A stretch of DNA of 24,818 bases. Source: a virus. Numbering within the stretch: position 1 is the stretch's first letter; each line of letters opens with the position of its first letter. A program made the position numbers and the translations under genes. Shown one piece after another: positions 8,364 to 23,628 of this stretch. The DNA lies in the IMG/VR virus record IMGVR_UViG_3300013094_000266, positions 1-24,818 of that record. One strand, 5' to 3'. The notes under the pieces were generated by a model, which worked only from the letters and a program-made list of their open reading frames with translations, was not told where the DNA came from and ran no database searches.

Positions 8364-9665
8364 ATGTATTTCATCGTAGAAACTATAGAGCAGTTCGGTC
8401 AAATGGAGCACACAGAAGAGTGCTTCGTTCAGCTCATATCGGGCAACGATAAATTCCACCCAAAATTATCTTATCCAAGTTTACTGTATTACAACGACGG
8501 TAACAAAGGCTATATATTCCCCTTCAAACATTCGGAAGCGTTTTCTCTCGATTTGGAATTAGTCCAAAGCTTTTTGTCCAAACACAAGACAGTGTACCTA
8601 ATAGACAAAAAGTATCACTCGTATTTCTTTGATCTGGACAACACCGTAGATATTAACTTCATCTATTTGGACCAGACCAACAATTACGAGCCATTCGATT
8701 GCGATACTTTATTGCAGAACAACTATTATTCCAAGTTCGTAAACTTACCAAACGTTAACGAAATAATACCGATCGCAAAGCACTACGAAAGGTGTCAGTG
8801 TTTGTACGAGATAGTTAAAGGATTCTTTGGGCTAGAAGCGGACACAAAATTCCAAGACAGACTAGTCGATGCGTACAGAAAAGTAGAGCAGAATCCCATA
8901 AAGATAGACGAAGATAAATTCAAACTAAAGTACAGTCTAGTCAACGAAAATTGTTCCAAGCACGGAGACTTTATATACTCCTACTACAACTTATATAATT
9001 TGACCGGTAGACCCACCAACTCTTTTAACGGCGTCAACTTTTTAGCGATACCAAAGGACAAAGAGTTTAGAGAATGTTTTGTATCTTCGAATAGCTATTT
9101 GGTTGAGTTCGATTTCGATGCTTATCACTTGAGACTGATAGGAAATTTAATCGGCTACGAATGGGGAAAAACGTCTATTCACACCGAGTTGGGCAAAGAG
9201 TACTTCGGCAAAGACGAACTGACCCAAGAGGAATACTCAGAATCAAAGACTATAACGTTCAAACAACTTTACGGTGGAGTGGACAAGAAGTACAAACACA
9301 TAGAGTTCTTCGCCAAAATGGACGCATATATCCAAGAGACTTGGGAAAACTATAAAAAACAGGGCGCAATATCTTTGCCTACGGGGAGAATATTAAAGTT
9401 CACCAAAGACATGAACAAACTAAAGCTATTCAATTACGTGGTGCAGAATCAGGAGACTCTGGCCAACGTATCTAAAATAGAGCGTATAAATCAATACCTA
9501 GAAGAAAAGAAGCTGAGGACGAAGCTCGTATTAATCACCTACGATTCTTTTCTATTCGACTTTAGGGCTCACGATGGCAAGAAAACATTATTGGACATAA
9601 AAGCTATATTGGAACAGGACAATATGGTCGTAAAACACAAGCACGGACTCAATTACTCATTTTAA
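8364..9665 (+). CDS. Short divergent family A DNA polymerase-like protein
   Basis: A 433-residue protein aligning by eye with the Klenow polymerase core. A TGR (R216, like Klenow R668) is followed by a VNFLAIP strand. Motif A is FDFDAYHLRL, with D250 at D705; the E710 steric-gate position is H255. Motif B is KTITFKQLYGG, with K295, F299 and Y303 at K758, F762 and Y766, but Y291 at R754. Motif C is ITYDSF, with Y393, D394 and S395 at H881, D882 and E883. Both metal-binding Asp are therefore kept while several substrate-contact residues differ. The N-terminal 150 residues resemble a 3'-5' exonuclease fold in outline but lack the DxE, NxxxD and YxxxD motifs. A complete polymerase is encoded at 18627-20930, so this is a second copy: a specialised repair or bypass enzyme, a regulatory subunit, or a decaying paralogue. 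Family is quite certain; activity is not. Confidence 0.75.
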   Translation: MYFIVETIEQFGQMEHTEECFVQLISGNDKFHPKLSYPSLLYYNDGNKGYIFPFKHSEAFSLDLELVQSFLSKHKTVYLIDKKYHSYFFDLDNTVDINFIYLDQTNNYEPFDCDTLLQNNYYSKFVNLPNVNEIIPIAKHYERCQCLYEIVKGFFGLEADTKFQDRLVDAYRKVEQNPIKIDEDKFKLKYSLVNENCSKHGDFIYSYYNLYNLTGRPTNSFNGVNFLAIPKDKEFRECFVSSNSYLVEFDFDAYHLRLIGNLIGYEWGKTSIHTELGKEYFGKDELTQEEYSESKTITFKQLYGGVDKKYKHIEFFAKMDAYIQETWENYKKQGAISLPTGRILKFTKDMNKLKLFNYVVQNQETLANVSKIERINQYLEEKKLRTKLVLITYDSFLFDFRAHDGKKTLLDIKAILEQDNMVVKHKHGLNYSF

Positions 9666-9684: not shown

Positions 9685-9695
9685 ACTTAATGGTT

Positions 9696-10124
9696 ATGGA
9701 AGAATTAAAAACACTAGAATTAACGCAAGAGGCGCTTATGAATAAGTTATTTTGTAGTTTTACTACTAAAGACGGACTTGAGGAGAGATTACAAGAAATC
9801 AATAAAGAGTACAAAATCATGTACGGTAAGATATTCGTTTTAGAGTCTCCTGACTCCGAAGAATACATGTGTACTTACAATATAGAATTGGAAGGATCAA
9901 GCACAAAGATTTTGGGTAACACTATCCTCTTACACAGAAAGAAAGAGTCCAATACGTTGTACACAATCAATGCTTTGAACACTCTAATCAAATCTTTAAA
10001 CGGTGGAGTACTTGACACAAAGTTTATCATTAATTGGCCAGATTACAAGAACTCTATCCTATTGACTCAGGACGATGGTCTAAGAAAGTTAAATACGTCT
10101 ATACACAGGATAGTGAACGTATAA
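9696..10124 (+). CDS. Hypothetical protein, 142 aa
   Basis: Not recognised. Two in-frame ATGs lie six bases apart (9690 and 9696). I choose the second because it sits in the GTTATGG context shared by the starts of many replication genes here. The protein is mixed alpha/beta: an N-terminal helix rich in Glu and Leu, a FCSFTTKDGLEERLQEINKE segment, then alternating strands (KIFVLESPD, CTYNIELEG, NTILLHRKK) and a C-terminal part with FIINWPDYKNSILLTQDDG. No transmembrane segment, metal site or enzymatic motif is seen. It lies between the polymerase-like gene and SSB, 66 bases upstream of SSB, so a role in replication or its control is possible but not shown. Codon usage is that of the surrounding genes. 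Confidence 0.65.
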   Translation: MEELKTLELTQEALMNKLFCSFTTKDGLEERLQEINKEYKIMYGKIFVLESPDSEEYMCTYNIELEGSSTKILGNTILLHRKKESNTLYTINALNTLIKSLNGGVLDTKFIINWPDYKNSILLTQDDGLRKLNTSIHRIVNV

Positions 10125-10190: not shown

Positions 10191-11012
10191 ATGGACTTAT
10201 CAGCACTTAAGTCGCGTTTAGCGGCTTTACAAAATCCACGCGGAGGTCAAAAAGGCGAATTAGCCAAGACCTTATGGAGCCCAGCGGTTGGAAAACACCA
10301 AGTACGTATCGTTCCTTCGGCGTACAACAAATCAAACCCATTTAAAGAGTTATTTTTCCACTACGGAATCGGTAACAAAAACACAATGATCGCTTTGTCA
10401 AACTTTGGCGAAAAAGATCCTATCGTTGAATTCTCTCAAGGCTTAAGAAAGTCTTCTGTTAAAGAAGATTGGCAAATGGCCAAGAAGTTGGAGCCAAAGA
10501 TGAGAGTGTACGCACCGGTTATCGTTAGAAACCAAGAGGAATTAGGCGTAGTTTTATGGGGATTCGGTAAACAAGTTTACATGGATTTGTTGGCTTTGAC
10601 TGAAGACGAAGACGTAGGAGATTTCACAGATCCTATCCAAGGTCGTGATATTACTATCGAAGTACAAGGTAAAGAAACAACCGGTTTATCTTACAACACT
10701 TCTAGCATTAGAGTAAGAACTAAAATTACTCCATTGTCAGAAGACGCGGACAAAGTTAAACAATGGTTGACTACACAACCTGACCCAATGACTCAATTCA
10801 AAAAGTACTCTTACGAAGAAATGAAGAGCGCATTGATGTCGCATTTGAATCCTGAAGAAGAAATCAAGCAGAACGCAGATTCTGTTGTAGTGAAAACCGA
10901 AGAAGTTGGCGATTTACCATGGGAAAAAGACGCACCAGCTGCTCAACCTTTCACATTGAGTACGACCAAAAAAGATGTCGATTCCAAAATAGACGATTTG
11001 TTCAACTTTTGA
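10191..11012 (+). CDS. Single-stranded DNA-binding protein, T4 gp32-like
   Basis: A 273-residue protein with the gp32 layout. A short basic N-terminal segment (SALKSRLAALQ, then RGGQKGE) matches the region gp32 uses for cooperative binding. A central OB-fold-like core follows, with VGKHQVRIVPS, PFKELFFHYGI, VYAPVIVRN and VVLWGFGKQVYMDLL, which correspond to the gp32 lines about RFLPS, NHGF, YWANILV and FRFGKKIW. The acidic C-terminal tail ends SKIDDLFNF, the type that recruits partner proteins. It has no cysteine, so the zinc site of T4 gp32 is absent. It coats ssDNA and should work with the UvsX, helicase and polymerase encoded nearby. The start has the AATACAGTTATGG context and no Shine-Dalgarno sequence. 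A 14-bp inverted repeat follows the stop. Confidence 0.85.
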   Translation: MDLSALKSRLAALQNPRGGQKGELAKTLWSPAVGKHQVRIVPSAYNKSNPFKELFFHYGIGNKNTMIALSNFGEKDPIVEFSQGLRKSSVKEDWQMAKKLEPKMRVYAPVIVRNQEELGVVLWGFGKQVYMDLLALTEDEDVGDFTDPIQGRDITIEVQGKETTGLSYNTSSIRVRTKITPLSEDADKVKQWLTTQPDPMTQFKKYSYEEMKSALMSHLNPEEEIKQNADSVVVKTEEVGDLPWEKDAPAAQPFTLSTTKKDVDSKIDDLFNF

Positions 11013-11137: not shown

Positions 11138-11698
11138 ATGGCTATAGTGTATCAACATAGAAGAAAAGATACTAATGAAATTTTTTATGTAGGTAGAGGG
11201 AAAATTTTAAAAAGAGCTTATTCTAAAGCAAATAGAAATACTCACTGGCATAATATTGTTAATAAGACAGATTACGAAGTAGAAATCATTTATTCTAATT
11301 TATCTTGGGAAGAATCTGGATTAAAAGAAATTGAATTGATTAAATCTATAGGTCGTCAAAATTTAAACAAAGGTCCTTTAGTAAATCTCACAGACGGCGG
11401 AGAAGGCATGATGACTTTTATGTTTTCTGAAGAGTCAAAAGAAAAAATGAGATTATCTAAGCTAGGAAATAAAAATGGAAGCGGAAATAAAGGCCAAAAA
11501 AGACAAGCACATTCGCAAGACACCATTAAAAAAATTAGCGATGCAAATAGAGGTAAAGTTCATACTAAACAATCTAGATCTAATATGTCAAAAGCTCATA
11601 TAGGCCAAGTACATTCAGAAGAAACAAAACAAAAGATGAGAGGGCCAAGAGGACCTCAAAAAAATCCTTTTTTAAGAAAGAATAAAGTATTACATTAA
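11138..11698 (+). CDS. Free-standing GIY-YIG homing endonuclease
   Basis: A 186-residue protein with a GIY-YIG nuclease domain in the first 90 residues: VYQHRRKDTNEIFYVGRGK carries the two-strand signature (variant of GIY and YIG), followed by KRAYSKANRN, a W and the NIVNK helix. A catalytic-type Glu lies in the LKEIELIKSIG segment, followed by an NLTDGGEG turn. The C-terminus has NUMOD3-like DNA-binding repeats (SEESKEKMRLSKLG, SRSNMSKAHIG, SEETKQKMRG). Such enzymes cut an allele lacking the gene and spread by repair. It sits between SSB and uvsX; as I recall, T4 also carries a GIY-YIG nuclease gene beside gene 32. Its codon use (AAT, TAT, AGA, ATT) is more A/T-rich than its neighbours', which fits recent insertion. 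SSB and uvsX are both intact. Confidence 0.88.
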   Translation: MAIVYQHRRKDTNEIFYVGRGKILKRAYSKANRNTHWHNIVNKTDYEVEIIYSNLSWEESGLKEIELIKSIGRQNLNKGPLVNLTDGGEGMMTFMFSEESKEKMRLSKLGNKNGSGNKGQKRQAHSQDTIKKISDANRGKVHTKQSRSNMSKAHIGQVHSEETKQKMRGPRGPQKNPFLRKNKVLH

Positions 11699-11715: not shown

Positions 11716-12783
11716 ATGGCAAAAGCACTTACAGGCAAAATATCAAATGCAATAAAGTCCGAGTTTAACTTGGACAAATTTAAGAAGTCAAAGAACTTAT
11801 CCTCAAGCAGCGTTAAGTTCAAAGAGCAAAAATGGATTCCACTTTCATCAGCATTTCAAGATGCGTTACAAATTCCAGGAATCGCGATCGGTCACATCAA
11901 TCTATTAAGAGGTCACTCGGACACCGGTAAAACTACCGCTTTATTGGAAGCAGCAGTTCAAGCACAAAAGATGGGCATATTACCGGTATTCATTATCACA
12001 GAGATGAAATGGAGTTGGGAACACGCCAAACAAATGGGTCTTCAATTCAACGAAGTACCAGACGACGACGGTGTTATTTCTGACTACAACGGATTCTTCA
12101 TCTACGTGGATAGAGAAAAGTTACAGTGCATCGAAGACGTGTCTGCGTTTATCTTGGACATTTTGGACGAACAAAAGAACGGTAACTTACCTTACGATTT
12201 GTGTTTCTTTTGGGACTCTGTTGGATCTATTCCTTGTAGATTATCTATCGAATCTAACAAGAACAATAACGAATGGAACGCTGGAGCAATGTCTCAGCAG
12301 TTCGGTAACTTCGTTAATCAAAAAATCATTATGTCGAGAAAGGAAAGTCAACAGTACACAAACACTTTCGTTGCTATCAATAAAGTTTGGGTTGCAAAGC
12401 CTGAAACTATTATGAGTCAGCCAAAGATGAAGAACAAAGGTGGAGACACAATGTTCTTTGATGCATCGTTGATCATTACTTTCGGAAACGTTACTAACTC
12501 TGGTACGAACAAGATCAAAGCTACTAAAAACGGTAAAGAGGTCGAATTTGCCAAGAGAACTAAATTGTCTTGCGATAAGAATCACATTACGGGAGTTACT
12601 GCAACTAACAAGTTGATTATGACAGTGCACGGATTCATCAACGACGACAAGAAGGACTTGGACAAGTACAAGAAAGATCACAGTCACGAATGGTTACAAG
12701 TATTGGGATCGAAAGATTTCGATGTGATCGAAGAGGAAGAAACGGACATTAAAGACATTTTTGATTCATCAGATAGCGAATAA
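11716..12783 (+). CDS. uvsX: UvsX/RecA-like recombinase
   Basis: A 355-residue RecA-fold ATPase. Walker A is GHSDTGKTT at residues 66-74. A Glu in FIITEMKWSW (E96) sits where RecA and UvsX have the catalytic Glu, and a Walker B-like LCFFWDSVGSIP strand ends at D167. A polar loop follows (NNNEWNAGAMSQQFG), then SRKESQQYTNTFVAINKVW, resembling the DNA-binding loop region. The protein would form filaments on ssDNA for strand exchange, recombination-dependent replication and repair, cooperating with SSB. The C-terminal tail is strongly acidic (EEEETDIKDIFDSSDSE). The start is in the AATAGTTATGG context. The TAA stop shares a base with the next ATG, indicating coupling to the 5'-nuclease. Before the homing endonuclease arrived, SSB and uvsX were presumably adjacent. 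Confidence 0.9.
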   Translation: MAKALTGKISNAIKSEFNLDKFKKSKNLSSSSVKFKEQKWIPLSSAFQDALQIPGIAIGHINLLRGHSDTGKTTALLEAAVQAQKMGILPVFIITEMKWSWEHAKQMGLQFNEVPDDDGVISDYNGFFIYVDREKLQCIEDVSAFILDILDEQKNGNLPYDLCFFWDSVGSIPCRLSIESNKNNNEWNAGAMSQQFGNFVNQKIIMSRKESQQYTNTFVAINKVWVAKPETIMSQPKMKNKGGDTMFFDASLIITFGNVTNSGTNKIKATKNGKEVEFAKRTKLSCDKNHITGVTATNKLIMTVHGFINDDKKDLDKYKKDHSHEWLQVLGSKDFDVIEEEETDIKDIFDSSDSE

Positions 12784-13811
12784 TGGAAGAACGATACAAA
12801 GCAATGTTGGATTCCTTGGGTAAAGATACCACAGAGGAAAAGGAGGAACCTTTGAAGTTAAACGACAGAGTTCTAATCATAGACTCGTTGAACGCCTTCA
12901 TAAGGTCCTTCACCATTATCAATCACGTGAATAAGTACGGTCACCACATTGGAGGATTGACCGGCTATCTAAAATCTTTGGGCTACGCAATTAATCTTAT
13001 CAGACCAACCAGGGTCATACTGGTGTTCGATGGGCAAGGCGGATCGACTAACAAGAAGTATTTATATCCCGAATACAAAGCCAACAGAGGTTATCGCAGG
13101 GTGACTAACTGGGACTTGTTCGACAATCAAGAGCAAGAAGCGGAGTCGATCACTAACCAGATACTTCGATTGGTGGACTACTTAAAGTGTTTGCCGGTAG
13201 ATTTGTTGTCCATAGACAAGATCGAGGCAGACGACGTTATCGGTTGTTTGGCAGGAAAATTACCTGGAGAAGTTACCATAGTGTCCAGCGACCGAGACTA
13301 TTTACAGCTCGTGAATGAAAGGATTACAGTATATTCACCTATCAAGAAAAAATTCTACCAGTACAAAGAGGTTTTGGAAGAGTACGGAGTTACACCGCAA
13401 AACTTCTTGGCAGAGAAAGTATTGATGGGAGACAGCGGAGACAACGTACCAGGCGTCAAAGGTATTGGGCAGAAGACTTTATTGAAGCACTACCCAGAGT
13501 TGGCAGACGATACTGTATTCACGTTAGACGAAATATTGGACAAAGCAAGAGCGAGCAAAGGAAACATATACGAAAGGATTCTTGCGTTCGAAAATCAGCT
13601 GTACGTTAACGAACAGTTGATGGACCTAAAAAATCCCAACATACCGCAAGATTCGATGGAAACCATAGACTACATTCTAGAGAATCCAACGAAGACCTTT
13701 AGACCCAAAGAATTTGCAGAGCTGTACGAAGAGGACGATTTGGGTAAAAGCATAAACAACCTACAGATATGGTTGTTCGAAAAATTTCATGAAATAAGTA
13801 AATATAAATAA
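12783..13811 (+). CDS. 5'-3' exonuclease / flap endonuclease (T4 RNase H-like)
   Basis: A 342-residue FEN-type nuclease. The acidic metal ligands are in order: D34 in LIIDSLNAF, D83 in LVFDGQGG, E148/D150/D151 in KIEADDVIG, D170 and D172 in VSSDRDYLQ, and D217/D220 in LMGDSGDNVPG. A helix-three-turn-helix follows (GVKGIGQKTLLKHYPEL). A basic arch stretch (KKYLYPEYKANRG) lies after the second motif. It should remove RNA primers and 5' flaps during lagging-strand synthesis, as T4 RNase H does; the PolA encoded here lacks a 5'-nuclease domain, so this gene supplies it separately. It overlaps uvsX by one base and ends three bases before the helicase start. Length is close to T4 RNase H plus a short N-terminal extension. 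Confidence 0.88.
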   Translation: MEERYKAMLDSLGKDTTEEKEEPLKLNDRVLIIDSLNAFIRSFTIINHVNKYGHHIGGLTGYLKSLGYAINLIRPTRVILVFDGQGGSTNKKYLYPEYKANRGYRRVTNWDLFDNQEQEAESITNQILRLVDYLKCLPVDLLSIDKIEADDVIGCLAGKLPGEVTIVSSDRDYLQLVNERITVYSPIKKKFYQYKEVLEEYGVTPQNFLAEKVLMGDSGDNVPGVKGIGQKTLLKHYPELADDTVFTLDEILDKARASKGNIYERILAFENQLYVNEQLMDLKNPNIPQDSMETIDYILENPTKTFRPKEFAELYEEDDLGKSINNLQIWLFEKFHEISKYK

Positions 13812-13814
13812 GTT

Positions 13815-15209
13815 ATGGCAGTATTGAACACGCTACAAAGTTACGGAAATGGATTTCAAACAAAGGTTTTGTCGAGCTTATTAAAGCACAAGGAGTTTTT
13901 ACAAAACGTTAACGATGTATTGGACACTAACATGTTCGATAACCCGGCTCACAAATGGATCGTATCGGAAACGTTAAGATACTATTACAAGTATCACACA
14001 ACACCTTCACCAGAGTCGTTACAGGTAGAAGTGAAGAAGATCGACAACGAAGTATTGAAAGTTAGCGTAATAGAACAGTTGAAAGAGGCTTTAAAGGCCG
14101 CAAACGAGGACAGAGAGTACATAGAGCAAGAGTTCTCCAACTTCTGTAGAAATCAGCAGTTAAAGAACGCGATATTGGAATCGGTTAAATTATTAGAGAA
14201 AGGCGAATACGAAGACATCAGACACATCGTCAACATGGCCTCGAAAGCGGGTCAAGACAAAACTATCGGTCACGAGTACGAGAAAGACATGGAAACCCGA
14301 TACAGACAAGAGCAAAGATCTCCAGTTCCAACCCCATGGGACAATCTAAACAACTTGCTTATGGGTGGTTTGGGCGTAGGCGATCTAGGACTAATATTCG
14401 GAAACCCTGGTGGAGGTAAGTCTTGGATGCTCATTAATCTGGGCGCAAGAGCGGTTGCAGCTGGGTTTACGGTTTGTCACTATACACTAGAACTTTCCGA
14501 GGACTACGTTGGTAAAAGGTACGATGCTTTATTTACGGGTATCGATGCTCAACAGATTCACTTACACAAGGACAAAATCTCCGAAGTGGTGAATAAGTTA
14601 CCAGGTAAGTTGATCATTAAAGAGTTCCCAATGGGAAAAGCTGGGCCGGCAACCATAGAATCTCACATCCAAAAGTGCAGGGACTTGAAGTACCCACCCG
14701 ACTTGGTTATTATCGACTACGTTGATTTGTTAAAGAGCAAGACAAGATCTATAGACCCAAAGGACGCAATCGACGATGTTTACACAGCGATCAAGGGTAT
14801 GGCAAGGGAACTCAAAGTGCCAGTGTGGACGGTATCCCAAGTAAATAGAATGGGAGCCAAGGACGACGTAATCGAAGGTGACAAAGCGGCAGGGTCCTAC
14901 AATAAGATGATGATTGCGGATTTCGCCATGTCTTTGTCCAGGAAGCGTCAGGACAAGGTCAATGGAACTGGCCGTATACATATTATGAAGAACAGATACG
15001 GCGCTGATGGTATGACCTATGGCGCTAAGGTGAATACAAATAACGGTAACATAGAGATCAATAAGGACGAAATGGACGAGGACGATCTAACCTTTGACAA
15101 CGGTCAAAGCGGTCCACCAAGGACCCAGCTACAGAACAAATCCACATTTAGTCCGGACGAGAAAAGCTATTTGAACCAAAAATTTGTTGAATTGGTAGGA
15201 AAGAGTTAA
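13815..15209 (+). CDS. DnaB/gp41-like replicative helicase
   Basis: A 464-residue RecA-fold hexameric helicase. The first 150 residues are helical, as in the DnaB N-terminal domain (KVLSSLLKHKEFLQNV, HKWIVSETLRYYYKYH). The motor has Walker A GNPGGGKS at 196-203, a catalytic-type Glu in HYTLELSED (E226), Walker B LVIIDYVDLL with D301, a VPVWTVSQVNR strand (motif H3), and KNRYGADG near the arginine-finger region. It would move 5'-3' on the lagging strand and unwind the fork. The C-terminal tail is acidic and hydrophilic. It begins three bases after the nuclease gene in an AAGTTATGG context, so uvsX, nuclease and helicase form a tight cluster. No primase gene is present nearby, and I see no primase domain fused to it. 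Confidence 0.9.
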   Translation: MAVLNTLQSYGNGFQTKVLSSLLKHKEFLQNVNDVLDTNMFDNPAHKWIVSETLRYYYKYHTTPSPESLQVEVKKIDNEVLKVSVIEQLKEALKAANEDREYIEQEFSNFCRNQQLKNAILESVKLLEKGEYEDIRHIVNMASKAGQDKTIGHEYEKDMETRYRQEQRSPVPTPWDNLNNLLMGGLGVGDLGLIFGNPGGGKSWMLINLGARAVAAGFTVCHYTLELSEDYVGKRYDALFTGIDAQQIHLHKDKISEVVNKLPGKLIIKEFPMGKAGPATIESHIQKCRDLKYPPDLVIIDYVDLLKSKTRSIDPKDAIDDVYTAIKGMARELKVPVWTVSQVNRMGAKDDVIEGDKAAGSYNKMMIADFAMSLSRKRQDKVNGTGRIHIMKNRYGADGMTYGAKVNTNNGNIEINKDEMDEDDLTFDNGQSGPPRTQLQNKSTFSPDEKSYLNQKFVELVGKS

Positions 15210-18626: not shown

Positions 18627-20930
18627 ATGGAAAAGAGTTATGTTCTGGTTAATACCAAAGAGCTCGTGCAAGAAATGGCACGACACATATTAGAGAACGA
18701 CATTATTGCGTTCGATACAGAGACCACATCGTTAAACCCACGAAAAGGTTCGATTATAGGTTGGTCAGTTTCAGCAGAACCTGGTAAAGGTTACTATCTC
18801 CCTACAAAATTATTCAAAAACGGCGAATTGGTCGATGCGTATATCGAGGACGTTAAAGCTCACGATGTATCGATCAAAGTGATTAACATGTTGGTCGGCA
18901 AAAAGCTGATCATGCACAACGCAAGCTTCGACTGTAGATTCGTTAAGAACTATTTTAAGATCGATCTGTTGTCCTCTTTGCACGCAGATACAATGTTGTT
19001 AGTACACACTGTTAACGAAGAAGGCGCTGGGTTCGGATCCAGTTCTCCATTTGGTTTGAAGAGTATCGCCAAGATGATTCAAAAAGAACTTGGATTGGAC
19101 GTAGAAAAAGCGGCCAACGAAGAACAGATAGCTCTAAAGAATTCTATCAAAGAAAACGGCGGCTCTGTTACACGAGACAATTACGAAATATGGAAAGCCG
19201 ATATCAATATTCTATCCGAGTACGCTGCGGCCGATACCGATCTAACGCTAAGAGTTTACAATCATTTTATTAAGGATCTATACGATCAAGGTCTAGAAGC
19301 ATTTTTCTTCGAGGACGAAGTAATGCCATTGTACAAAGAAGTTACTATCCCAATGGAAGAAACCGGAGTTAAGCTAGATATGGACCTAATCAATAGAACT
19401 AAGGACGAAGTTACCCAAGCTCTAGAGGATCACAAGAAGAAGGTCGTTGAAGAGTTGTTAAGTTATGCAGAAGTAAAACATTGGATCTTGATAAAAGCTG
19501 CCAATGCGTTCCCTGCGAACAACAGAGGTACATTTGCCATAGAACTTATAGATCAGAGCGGTATAGAATTCCCAAGGTCGGAAAAGACCGGCAAGTACAA
19601 CATCGCCAACGCAAACATACTAAGAATTCCAGACGGTCCAGTTAAACAATTCTTACTACACGGAGACACACAAATCCTAGAGCCAGATCAAATCACCAAA
19701 ATACAGTTAAAGCTTTGGAAAGAATCCAACGACGGTAACTGGTTCAACATACAATCCAAAGATCAGTTAGGTGAAATTGCTTTCGGTGCTTTGGGTATCA
19801 AGGCAAAATCTACCACAAAAACCGGTAAACCACAGTTCGACGACGATATGATTCAAGCCATTGGAGATACAGAAGAATGGGCGAAGAATCTAAGAATATA
19901 CAACAAGTTATTAAAGATCAAGTCCACTTACGTAGAAAGATTCTTGGACGGTCAAGAGGACGGTAGATATTACTTTAGTTACAAACAACACGGTACAGTA
20001 TCGGGCCGTTACGGTTCCGACGCTCAACAATTACCACGACCAAAGGAAGAAGGTGACGACGATCCAATCGTAATCGAGTACAACAATAGAGTAAGAGCAT
20101 TTTTCGTTCCTGACGAACACAACATATTCATCGACGACGACTACGAATCGTTAGAGCCACACGTATTCGCTCACGTATCCGAAGACGAAGGACTAAAGGA
20201 CATCTTTAGAAACGGTTGGGACTTCTATTCAACGATCGCAATCAAAACAGAAAAATTAGATCAATATTCCCCTGATAAAAAGGCCGACAACTATTTAAGA
20301 AAGCTTGCACCTAAGTTGAGAAACAAGGCAAAAGCTTACGCTCTAGGTATTCCTTACGGCATGGGAGCTTACGCTCTGGGTAAGAACATCGAAGTATCGA
20401 CAAAGGAAGCAAAGAAATTGGTCGACGGTTATCTAAGTGGATTCCCAGAACTAGAGAAGTGGATGAGAAAGTCTGAGAACGACGCAAGAACTTTAGGATA
20501 CGTTAAAACACAAGTTGGTCGTATAAGACACTTACCGAAAGTAAAAGCGATATACGAACAGCTAGGCGACGCAATGTTGGACTACAATACCAAAAAGGAG
20601 TTAGCCTACAGTCACGGAGAAGACAAAGTCAAAAGCATTTCAAGGGACTTCGTAAACGGACTAAACAATAGTAAAAATTATCAGATACAAAGTTTATCTG
20701 CTTCTATCGTAAACAGAGCAGCTATACAAATTAATAGAAGATTTAAACAGAATAATATAGTTGGATGGGTTTGCGCGCAAATACACGATCAGCTTATAAT
20801 CGAAGTAGAAATTTCAAGATCAGAAGAAGCGATGTTTATAGTTCAAGATTGTATGGAAAATACCACCAAATTAAGTCTTAAGTTAAAGGCTGTCCCTGCA
20901 TTGGCAAAAAACTTTAGAGACGGTCACTAG
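18627..20930 (+). CDS. polA: Family A DNA polymerase with 3'-5' exonuclease domain
   Basis: A 767-residue replicative polymerase. The exonuclease domain has D30/E32 in AFDTETTSL, N98/D102 in MHNASFD and Y199/D203 in YAAADTD, so proofreading should be intact. The polymerase domain has motif A DYESLEPH (D505, E510 = Klenow D705, E710), motif B RNKAKAYALGIPYG (R565, K569, Y577 = R754, K758, Y766) and motif C QIHDQL (H720, D721). Departures: L573 replaces the F762-type residue that affects nucleotide selection, H512 replaces R712, and Q722 replaces E883. There is no 5'-nuclease domain; that activity is encoded at 12783-13811. The start is in the TTACAGTTATGG context. Bases about 20650-20800, around motif C, have more AAT and ATA codons than the rest. 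It probably replicates the phage genome with the helicase and SSB. Confidence 0.93.
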   Translation: MEKSYVLVNTKELVQEMARHILENDIIAFDTETTSLNPRKGSIIGWSVSAEPGKGYYLPTKLFKNGELVDAYIEDVKAHDVSIKVINMLVGKKLIMHNASFDCRFVKNYFKIDLLSSLHADTMLLVHTVNEEGAGFGSSSPFGLKSIAKMIQKELGLDVEKAANEEQIALKNSIKENGGSVTRDNYEIWKADINILSEYAAADTDLTLRVYNHFIKDLYDQGLEAFFFEDEVMPLYKEVTIPMEETGVKLDMDLINRTKDEVTQALEDHKKKVVEELLSYAEVKHWILIKAANAFPANNRGTFAIELIDQSGIEFPRSEKTGKYNIANANILRIPDGPVKQFLLHGDTQILEPDQITKIQLKLWKESNDGNWFNIQSKDQLGEIAFGALGIKAKSTTKTGKPQFDDDMIQAIGDTEEWAKNLRIYNKLLKIKSTYVERFLDGQEDGRYYFSYKQHGTVSGRYGSDAQQLPRPKEEGDDDPIVIEYNNRVRAFFVPDEHNIFIDDDYESLEPHVFAHVSEDEGLKDIFRNGWDFYSTIAIKTEKLDQYSPDKKADNYLRKLAPKLRNKAKAYALGIPYGMGAYALGKNIEVSTKEAKKLVDGYLSGFPELEKWMRKSENDARTLGYVKTQVGRIRHLPKVKAIYEQLGDAMLDYNTKKELAYSHGEDKVKSISRDFVNGLNNSKNYQIQSLSASIVNRAAIQINRRFKQNNIVGWVCAQIHDQLIIEVEISRSEEAMFIVQDCMENTTKLSLKLKAVPALAKNFRDGH

Positions 20931-21710: not shown

Positions 21711-22004
21711 ATGAGTAAATTAAACCCAAAAAACGGTTTCGCAGTATTGAAACCAGTAGAAGAACAAGAGCAGACCTACGGTAATATCGTAATACCTGAT
21801 CTTGGAAAGGAACGTCCTGAAATGGGCGAAGTTATTGCAGTAAGCCAAACCTACAACTGGCATTGCGGAGAGTACGTAGATTCTCAATTCCAGGTTGGAC
21901 AGAAAGTTCTGATTCCAAAGATGGGAACTATGAAGATCTCAGTAGGCGGCGAAGATTATTTTTTAACCAAAGACACAGAGATTCTATCTGTGGTAGAAGA
22001 TTAA
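21711..22004 (+). CDS. groES: GroES-type co-chaperonin
   Basis: At 97 residues it matches the usual bacterial GroES length. The mobile loop lies at about residues 17-35 and carries GNIVIP, where E. coli has the IVL tripeptide that contacts GroEL, so the contact motif is IVI at residues 26-28. Conserved barrel features follow: GEVIAVS, VGQKVLIPKMG and a C-terminal EDYFLTKDTEILSVVE like the bacterial Y-x-I-M-R-E-x-D-I-L-A end. Four bases separate it from groEL, the classical order, so both are probably translated together. It would cap the GroEL ring and define the folding chamber. It is a bona fide GroES, not the structural mimic gp31 of T4. Phage copies may enlarge the chamber for capsid protein, but the loop shows no large insertion. 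Confidence 0.93.
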   Translation: MSKLNPKNGFAVLKPVEEQEQTYGNIVIPDLGKERPEMGEVIAVSQTYNWHCGEYVDSQFQVGQKVLIPKMGTMKISVGGEDYFLTKDTEILSVVED

Positions 22005-22008
22005 TATT

Positions 22009-23628
22009 ATGAGTACAACAACAAACATAAGCGGTACGGAACTTAAAGAAAAGTTATTGGCCGGTATCAACAAATTAAACCAATCAGTGTCTTCAACTTT
22101 AGGACCTGGTGGTAGAACTGTTTTGATAAAAGAACAAAGCGGTGAAGTAAAAGTTACTAAGGACGGTGTTACTGTCGCTAAAGCTTTCCACAAATTGGAA
22201 GACGACGTAGAAGACTTAGGAGCTCAGTTAGTAAAGCAAGTAAGTATCAAATCAGCTAACGAGGCTGGAGACGGTACGACTACTTCTACTTTATTGGCCA
22301 CTGAAATCGTAAGAGAAGGATTGAAAGTAATTCGTCAAGGTTCTAACGCGGTAGAAATTAAAAATGCTATCGACAAAACGGTAAAAGAAGTAGTTAACAA
22401 CATTAAGAAGTTGGCGATCGAAGTCGGATCTGAAGAGCAAATAAAACAAGTTGCAACGATCTCAGGTAACAACGATCCAGAAGTTGGTAACTTAATCGCT
22501 ACTGCAATCGGAAAAGTTGGTCGCGAAGGTGTTGTAACCATCGAAGAGTCTAAGACAGGTGAAACTAGCTTAGAGATTGTAGAAGGTATGCAATTCGATA
22601 GAGGTTACAAATCTCCTTACTTCGTTACTAACAATACAACGATGCAAGCTGGATTGGAAAATCCTTTAGTGTTATTGTACGACGGTAGAATTTCTTCTGC
22701 GCAAGAGTTGTTACAAGCATTAACAAAAGCAAACGCAGAGAACAGAGCTTTATTGATCATTTCAGAAGATATCGGAGACGAAGCATTGGCTACATTGATC
22801 GTAAACAAAATGAGAGGTATCGTACAAGTGTGTGCGGTTAAAGCTCCTGATTTTGGCGAAAGAAAAACGTTGATCTTGGAAGACATCGCTATCTTAACCG
22901 GTGGTCAAGTTATTTCAAAAGACAAAGGACACAAATTGGACAAGTTAACTCCTCAACAATTAAGCGAATTCCTTGGTACTGCTCGTTTAGCGACTATATC
23001 TAAAGAAGAAACTACAATTGTGGACGGTAAAGGCGACGAAGCTAAAATCGAAGCAAGAGCAGAAGAGATCAAAGAGCAAATCGAAAAGGCTACTTCATTC
23101 TACGAGAAAGAGAAGTTACAAGAGAGATTGGGTAAATTGGTCGGCGGTGTTGCTATTATCAATGTTGGAGGAAATTCCGATATCGAGATCAAAGAAAAGA
23201 AAGATAGAGTAGAGGACGCGTTGTACGCAACCAAAGCTGCGTTAGCGGACGGTATCGTACCAGGCGGTGGATCTGCTTTATTCCAAGCTTCTTTAGAGCA
23301 ATACGCAGAAGAATCAACTAACGATGCAATCGGTCGATCTATCGTTCAAAAAGCCATTCAAGCTCCGTTCAAGAAAATTTTGGACAATGCAGGAATCGAA
23401 GACTGGTACACATTCGTTCCTAAGGACGGTCAAATATACGACGCCAAGAATCACGTTATGGTAAACGCTATCGAGGCAGGTATCATCGATCCAGCGAAGG
23501 TAGTTATCACCGCACTTAAAAACGCATCTTCTGTAGCCGGTACAATTTTAACTACCGAGTCGGTTGTATTCGAGAAAAAAGGCGCTGACGAGAAAGATGA
23601 AATGAACCCTTTAGCGGGAATGATGTAA
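22009..23628 (+). CDS. groEL: GroEL-type chaperonin
   Basis: A 539-residue group I chaperonin. ATP-site motifs are present: LGPGGRTV at 31-38, KDGVTVAK at 51-58, GDGTTT at 87-92 (D88 = E. coli D87) and D403 in VEDALYATKAA, the counterpart of catalytic D398; then VPGGGSAL. All three domains (equatorial, intermediate, apical) are represented with no evident gap. Unlike most bacterial GroELs it lacks the C-terminal GGM repeats and ends in DEMNPLAGMM. It should assemble into a tetradecamer with the adjacent GroES. Chaperonin genes in phages are known but uncommon; here they presumably fold phage proteins or serve when host GroEL is limiting. Codon use matches the neighbouring phage genes, so it is not a fresh host acquisition. 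It follows groES by four bases. Confidence 0.95.
   Translation: MSTTTNISGTELKEKLLAGINKLNQSVSSTLGPGGRTVLIKEQSGEVKVTKDGVTVAKAFHKLEDDVEDLGAQLVKQVSIKSANEAGDGTTTSTLLATEIVREGLKVIRQGSNAVEIKNAIDKTVKEVVNNIKKLAIEVGSEEQIKQVATISGNNDPEVGNLIATAIGKVGREGVVTIEESKTGETSLEIVEGMQFDRGYKSPYFVTNNTTMQAGLENPLVLLYDGRISSAQELLQALTKANAENRALLIISEDIGDEALATLIVNKMRGIVQVCAVKAPDFGERKTLILEDIAILTGGQVISKDKGHKLDKLTPQQLSEFLGTARLATISKEETTIVDGKGDEAKIEARAEEIKEQIEKATSFYEKEKLQERLGKLVGGVAIINVGGNSDIEIKEKKDRVEDALYATKAALADGIVPGGGSALFQASLEQYAEESTNDAIGRSIVQKAIQAPFKKILDNAGIEDWYTFVPKDGQIYDAKNHVMVNAIEAGIIDPAKVVITALKNASSVAGTILTTESVVFEKKGADEKDEMNPLAGMM

Follow-up and report, generated by a model that had tools for sequence, protein, structure and literature searches.

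The window analysed here, a 24,818-nucleotide stretch of viral DNA (positions 1 to 24,818 of IMG/VR record IMGVR_UViG_3300013094_000266), encodes two homologues of family A DNA polymerases. One of them is presumed to be the replicase. The question raised by this locus is what the other one, with its altered nucleotide pocket, might contribute to the phage:

8364..9665, + strand: divPolA1, a homologue of family A polymerases with a reduced thumb, a dead exonuclease and the invariant changes E710H / R754Y / H881Y
18627..20930, + strand: full-length DNA polymerase of family A, including a 3'-5' exonuclease and presumed to be the replicase (PF00476, 1.6e-63; PF01612, 2.7e-15)

The second polymerase homologue and its family

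A first-pass annotation, made from the letters alone, had placed a full polymerase at 18627 and had proposed that the shorter protein may be a specialised polymerase or a non-catalytic replication factor, kept by selection. The full polymerase is confirmed by its matches to DNA_pol_A and to the 3'-5' exonuclease family, and it retains the canonical E710, R754 and H881 (Klenow numbering). Downstream of it, GroES-like (21711-22004) and GroEL-like (22009-23628) genes were recognised by eye and by synteny with Flavobacterium phage immuto, a position matching the account given in the text of PMC11348598 for related phages.

The shorter gene, 8364-9665 (+), is an intact ORF of 433 aa. Pfam DNA_pol_A matched it at E = 2e-8 with 34.0 bits, just below the curated cut-off of 34.3, and 40 of 76 relatives individually matched the same model at E <= 0.01. 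In an alignment of the family profile with Klenow, motifs A, B and C were all covered, D250 falling at D705 and D394 at D882. An AlphaFold2 model, computed from an alignment of 76 sequences (the window and environmental relatives), had mean pLDDT of 95.1 and pTM of 0.91. Over its residues 1-433 it matched M. smegmatis Pol I (6vdd) with Z of 27.6 and rmsd of 3.7 Å over 398 residues, and the polymerase palm was present. Taken together, the profile alignment and the full-length structural match exclude a chance resemblance to Pol I.

By tblastn, the protein shared 35% identity over 97% of its length with the second PolA of phage immuto (E 5e-74). It is a further member of an already published family, divPolA1, named by Yutin et al. 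2024 (Virol J 21:200, PMC11348598), the text of which describes 14 phages with immuto as the named representative. According to that text, the thumb of divPolA1 is truncated, all three exonuclease aspartates are replaced and the catalytic residues of the palm are kept; a regular polymerase is encoded separately with GroEL/ES near it, and conserved replication genes lie downstream of divPolA1. The window protein shares the truncated thumb, the dead exonuclease and the status of second polymerase with the family as described there. The words "steric", "E710" and "ribonucleotide" do not occur in the main text of PMC11348598, nor does the text name the 144-aa neighbour discussed below; its figures or supplements could contain the rewritten substrate pocket and might show the neighbour. 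In the literature searched, no experimental work on divPolA1 was found. What is added here is residue-level invariance in a much larger sample, a correction concerning E883 and an always-adjacent partner gene.

The carriers of divPolA1 are large T4-like phages of environmental bacteria. One scan of IMG/VR returned 386 relatives, and a profile scan returned at least 584. Among bacterial genome contigs there were two matches only, each in a metagenome-assembled genome, which is consistent with divPolA1 being a phage gene. Against four close relatives, dN/dS was 0.03-0.06 (dS was saturated for more distant ones), in support of the proposed maintenance by selection. The pairing with a full polymerase, which the first-pass annotation had suggested looking for in related phages, indeed recurs: 18 of 19 large records bearing divPolA1 encode a separate replicase, of family A in 12 and of family B in six, and the single record lacking one is a 114-kb record, possibly a fragment. 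In one contig (L003, 2262-3596), divPolA1 is split by a frame break, which might be a sequencing error or a sign of decay.

As for its origin, the idea that divPolA1 arose lately by duplication of the full polymerase of the same phage is not supported, the only trace being a weak N-terminal profile match (E 0.054). A relation to divPolA2 was also considered, and no profile match was found. The latter protein (Vibrio phage 1.063.O, AUR84708; described in the text of PMC11348598) is also a second, thumbless PolA-like protein beside another replicase. Unlike divPolA1, it still has, as read by eye, the Glu of E710 and an intact RxxxK motif.

Nucleotide pocket, thumb and exonuclease domain

Residue invariance was scored in 82 divPolA1 representatives with less than 85% identity to one another, in a family whose identities range down to about 24%. 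The equivalents of six Klenow residues were present in 82/82: R216 (R668), D250 (D705), K295 (K758), Y303 (Y766), Q361 (Q849) and D394 (D882). Thus, both catalytic aspartates, reported as surviving in the first-pass annotation, do not vary even among very diverged members. Three substitutions were equally invariant, namely H255 (E710), Y291 (R754) and Y393 (H881). The position of A852 is occupied by an invariant Glu (E364). The fingers residue D732 aligns with Ser271 in the window protein, a change seen in the window and close relatives.

For comparison, we used 22 ordinary family A sequences (15 from these phages, six other phage polymerases and Klenow), a small set that is rich in close relatives and counts the full polymerase of the window twice. 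E710, D732, R754, H881, K758, Y766, N845, Q849, D705 and D882 were unvarying in all 22. The steric gate position E710 is thus His in 82/82 divPolA1 proteins versus Glu in 22/22 ordinary polymerases, and the fingers motif reads YxxxK in the former versus RxxxK in the latter. RxxxK was listed by Iyer et al. among the features common to superfamily A polymerases and TV-Pols (PMC2579912). Because the changes at E710, R754 and H881 are invariant within divPolA1 and never seen in the 22 ordinary polymerases, we regard them as features of the family. Second polymerases with this identically rewritten pocket are retained in hundreds of contigs of environmental phages.

The residue assignments of the first-pass annotation (R216, D250, H255, Y291, K295, Y303 and Y393-D394-S395, the last three equivalent to H881-D882-E883) all proved right. 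It had, however, counted S395 as an altered member of the triad, and this part did not hold: 20/22 of the ordinary polymerases have Q, S or A in place of E883, so that a change to Ser is commonplace among phage enzymes and was dropped as a distinctive change of divPolA1. The truncation of the thumb and the changes D732 to Ser271 and A852 to E364 had been overlooked.

As for the thumb, E175 and R216 lie 41 residues apart in the window protein, whereas about 216 residues span the same stretch in the full polymerase of this phage; the equivalent spacing is 23-41 across divPolA1 and roughly 130 in phage Muddy. From this, it can be concluded that most of the thumb is gone. The exonuclease had been described as lacking its motifs, which holds for the catalytic residues: DTE of motif I in full PolA aligns to I-S-G in the profile alignment, and those of motifs II and III were judged by eye to be missing. 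The exonuclease-like fold itself remains, since the structural alignment begins at residue 1. Within this N-terminal domain (window 8364-8700), His32, His56, Lys83 and Asp96 are invariant in divPolA1, and such conservation despite the loss of the exonuclease acids suggests a retained binding role. Compared with Pol I, divPolA1 has thus preserved the whole-length fold, the three motifs A, B and C, and the majority of the template/primer contacts; it differs in the mostly deleted thumb, the lost exonuclease acids and the changes E710H, D732S (in the window and close relatives), R754Y, A852E and H881Y.

The downstream partner gene and the replication block

divPolA1 is followed by a row of genes on the same strand:

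9690..10124, + strand: 144-aa conserved protein of no known family, just downstream of divPolA1, candidate partner
10191..11012, + strand: gp32-like single-stranded DNA binding protein, SSB (Pfam gp32, 3e-11; phrog_1192, 9e-20)
11716..12783, + strand: RecA/UvsX-like recombinase (phrog_97, 8e-15; RecA, 3e-5)
12783..13811, + strand: 5'-3' exonuclease of the flap nuclease family (PF02739, 5e-30)
13815..15209, + strand: DnaB-like replicative helicase (PF03796, 8e-20; phrog_19, 8e-77)

Homologues of the 144-aa protein were found in 380 loci. When IMG/VR was scanned with this protein alone, independently of divPolA1, 76 additional loci were recovered; divPolA1 lay upstream in all 74 that were testable, the two remaining loci being too near a contig end to judge. 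Within the phage collection, the six records that hold the gene are the same six that gave clear divPolA1 matches. The protein has 19 columns invariant among 96 members and the signature NTILxHRKKESNTLYTINALN. No Pfam or PHROG family was assigned to it, a few single members giving weak, scattered matches to unrelated families. Its AF2 model (pLDDT 87.8) found no confident fold in the PDB: the best match, to the SV40 T-antigen origin-binding domain, had Z of 4.7, within noise, and no OB-fold match was obtained. Its pI is not basic.

The gene order divPolA1-partner-SSB-RecA-exonuclease-DnaB is kept in phages immuto and Mel-JY01 and in environmental contigs. Insertions of more than 300 bases were observed at the junction of divPolA1 and its partner in 13/288 loci versus 89/260 at the junction of partner and SSB. 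The junctions SSB-RecA, RecA-exonuclease and exonuclease-DnaB are as tight or tighter, which indicates that the adjacency of divPolA1 and the 144-aa gene, strong as it is, is also a property of the block as a whole. It may partly reflect common descent, as the neighbourhood is common to one broad phage group. In the window, a probable GIY-YIG-like homing endonuclease (11138-11698, recognised by eye) is inserted between SSB and RecA, and a homologue was detected in one alone of the loci compared. Two further T4 functions were sought in ten records. The T4 helicase loader gp59 gave no match, and as the control was also silent this does not imply its absence; the gp45 clamp gave no match over the cut-off in a search made with no T4 control.

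Possible roles of divPolA1

We consider it about an even chance (roughly 0.5) that divPolA1 is a catalytically competent, non-proofreading non-replicase of low processivity which performs short synthesis, probably with the 144-aa partner. The proofreading function and the thumb are lost, the catalytic centre is kept and the gene belongs to the SSB-RecA-exonuclease-DnaB block, all of which points to a specialised enzyme rather than a replicase. Such an enzyme would fill gaps, or extend primers or invading 3' ends, on DNA coated by SSB, acting inside this conserved module; the 144-aa protein probably works together with it, presumably by binding. We infer that divPolA1 polymerises at all and, because the thumb has been lost, that its processivity is low. 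In Klenow, E710 has a role in ribose discrimination (Astatke et al. 1998, as cited in PMC4882331). By analogy with this published role, His in place of the Glu gate would relax the discrimination of divPolA1 against ribonucleotides. The substitution tested in Klenow by Astatke and co-workers was reportedly Ala.

Against activity, nucleotide binding in Pol I involves E710, R754 and H881, so that their joint replacement could cripple synthesis. Alternatively, divPolA1 might be a non-catalytic replication factor whose polymerase fold binds nucleotides or the ends of a primer-template and controls the loading of replicase, helicase or recombinase, with the pair of Asp kept solely for binding of metal or DNA. 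The replacement of three substrate-contacting residues in every member would agree with this, as would the broken RxxxK motif of superfamily A (PMC2579912) and the exonuclease domain, which is already a pseudo-domain. Nevertheless, both metal-binding Asp and the equivalents of K758, Y766, Q849 and R668 are invariant across very diverged members, which exceeds what DNA binding would usually require, and we regard this explanation as improbable. The evidence favours an active enzyme in the replication/recombination module over a non-catalytic factor. A different division of labour would have divPolA1 fill gaps in partnership with the 5'-3' exonuclease encoded nearby, the two rebuilding the domains of a Pol I in trans for Okazaki fragment maturation and repair. 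This would be one specific form of our preferred explanation, in which the altered pocket would tolerate ribonucleotides or damaged templates. divPolA1 lacks both exonuclease activities and a Pol I-type 5'-3' exonuclease lies in the same conserved block; of all the roles discussed here, however, this one appears to us the least probable. T4-like phages commonly carry such a 5'-3' nuclease and no second polymerase.

By analogy, the closest biochemical precedent for divPolA1 and its partner is CCPol-MP of staphylococcal SCC elements, in which a PolA-type protein and a small ssDNA-binding partner prime DNA de novo (PMC7581432); PolA-SSB primases are surveyed in PMC10061031. divPolA1 and its neighbour could likewise form a primase-polymerase in which the small protein holds ssDNA while PolA starts the primer, possibly using ribonucleotides now that the Glu gate is gone. 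In both systems, the gene for a thumb-shortened PolA with a non-functional exonuclease immediately precedes that for a small partner (here of no known family), with a helicase in the same operon or block (PMC7581432, PMC10061031), and the His at the E710 position of all divPolA1 members would fit such a role. A last thumb helix one turn shorter than in Pol I is the proposed structural signature of such primases. In 75/76 divPolA1 members, the spacing that sets this helix falls short of that in E. coli Pol I by four residues, which also seemed to fit; as the ordinary polymerases of S-CBP2, ChickenKing, Zuko and Muddy share it, it is not diagnostic and was dropped as evidence for priming. Unlike divPolA1, CCPol keeps E710 and F762 and uses dNTPs, and its partner is a predicted OB fold (PMC7581432, PMC10061031), a fold which the model of the 144-aa protein did not match, its pI moreover not being basic. 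In CCPol-MP elements no DnaG or AEP primase has been identified (PMC7581432, PMC10061031), whereas a DnaG-type homologue is present in 3/3 reference phage records and in 8/11 contigs tested, that of immuto matching both zinc-ribbon and Toprim. A role of divPolA1 as the sole primase of these large genomes is weakened accordingly. For these reasons, namely the retained E710 and dNTP use of CCPol, the lack of an identified DnaG/AEP in its elements and the non-specific helix signature, we place de novo priming second and hold it to be unlikely. A bolder form, a two-subunit, ribonucleotide-using family A primase outside DnaG and AEP that would serve beside DnaG at a different step, for example recombination-dependent restart, is a rather remote prospect, slightly less probable to us than the non-catalytic factor.

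If active, divPolA1 would be a natural family A enzyme with both the ribose gate and a triphosphate contact changed. It would bear on the choice of sugar and substrate by family A enzymes and would account in part for a block of phage replication genes that is conserved yet uncharacterised. The 144-aa gene, always next to it, offers a concrete two-protein experiment on its job. Finally, phage immuto (L084, L081) carries annotated genes of the 7-deazaguanine pathway together with DpdA, and judging by these annotations it probably modifies its DNA.
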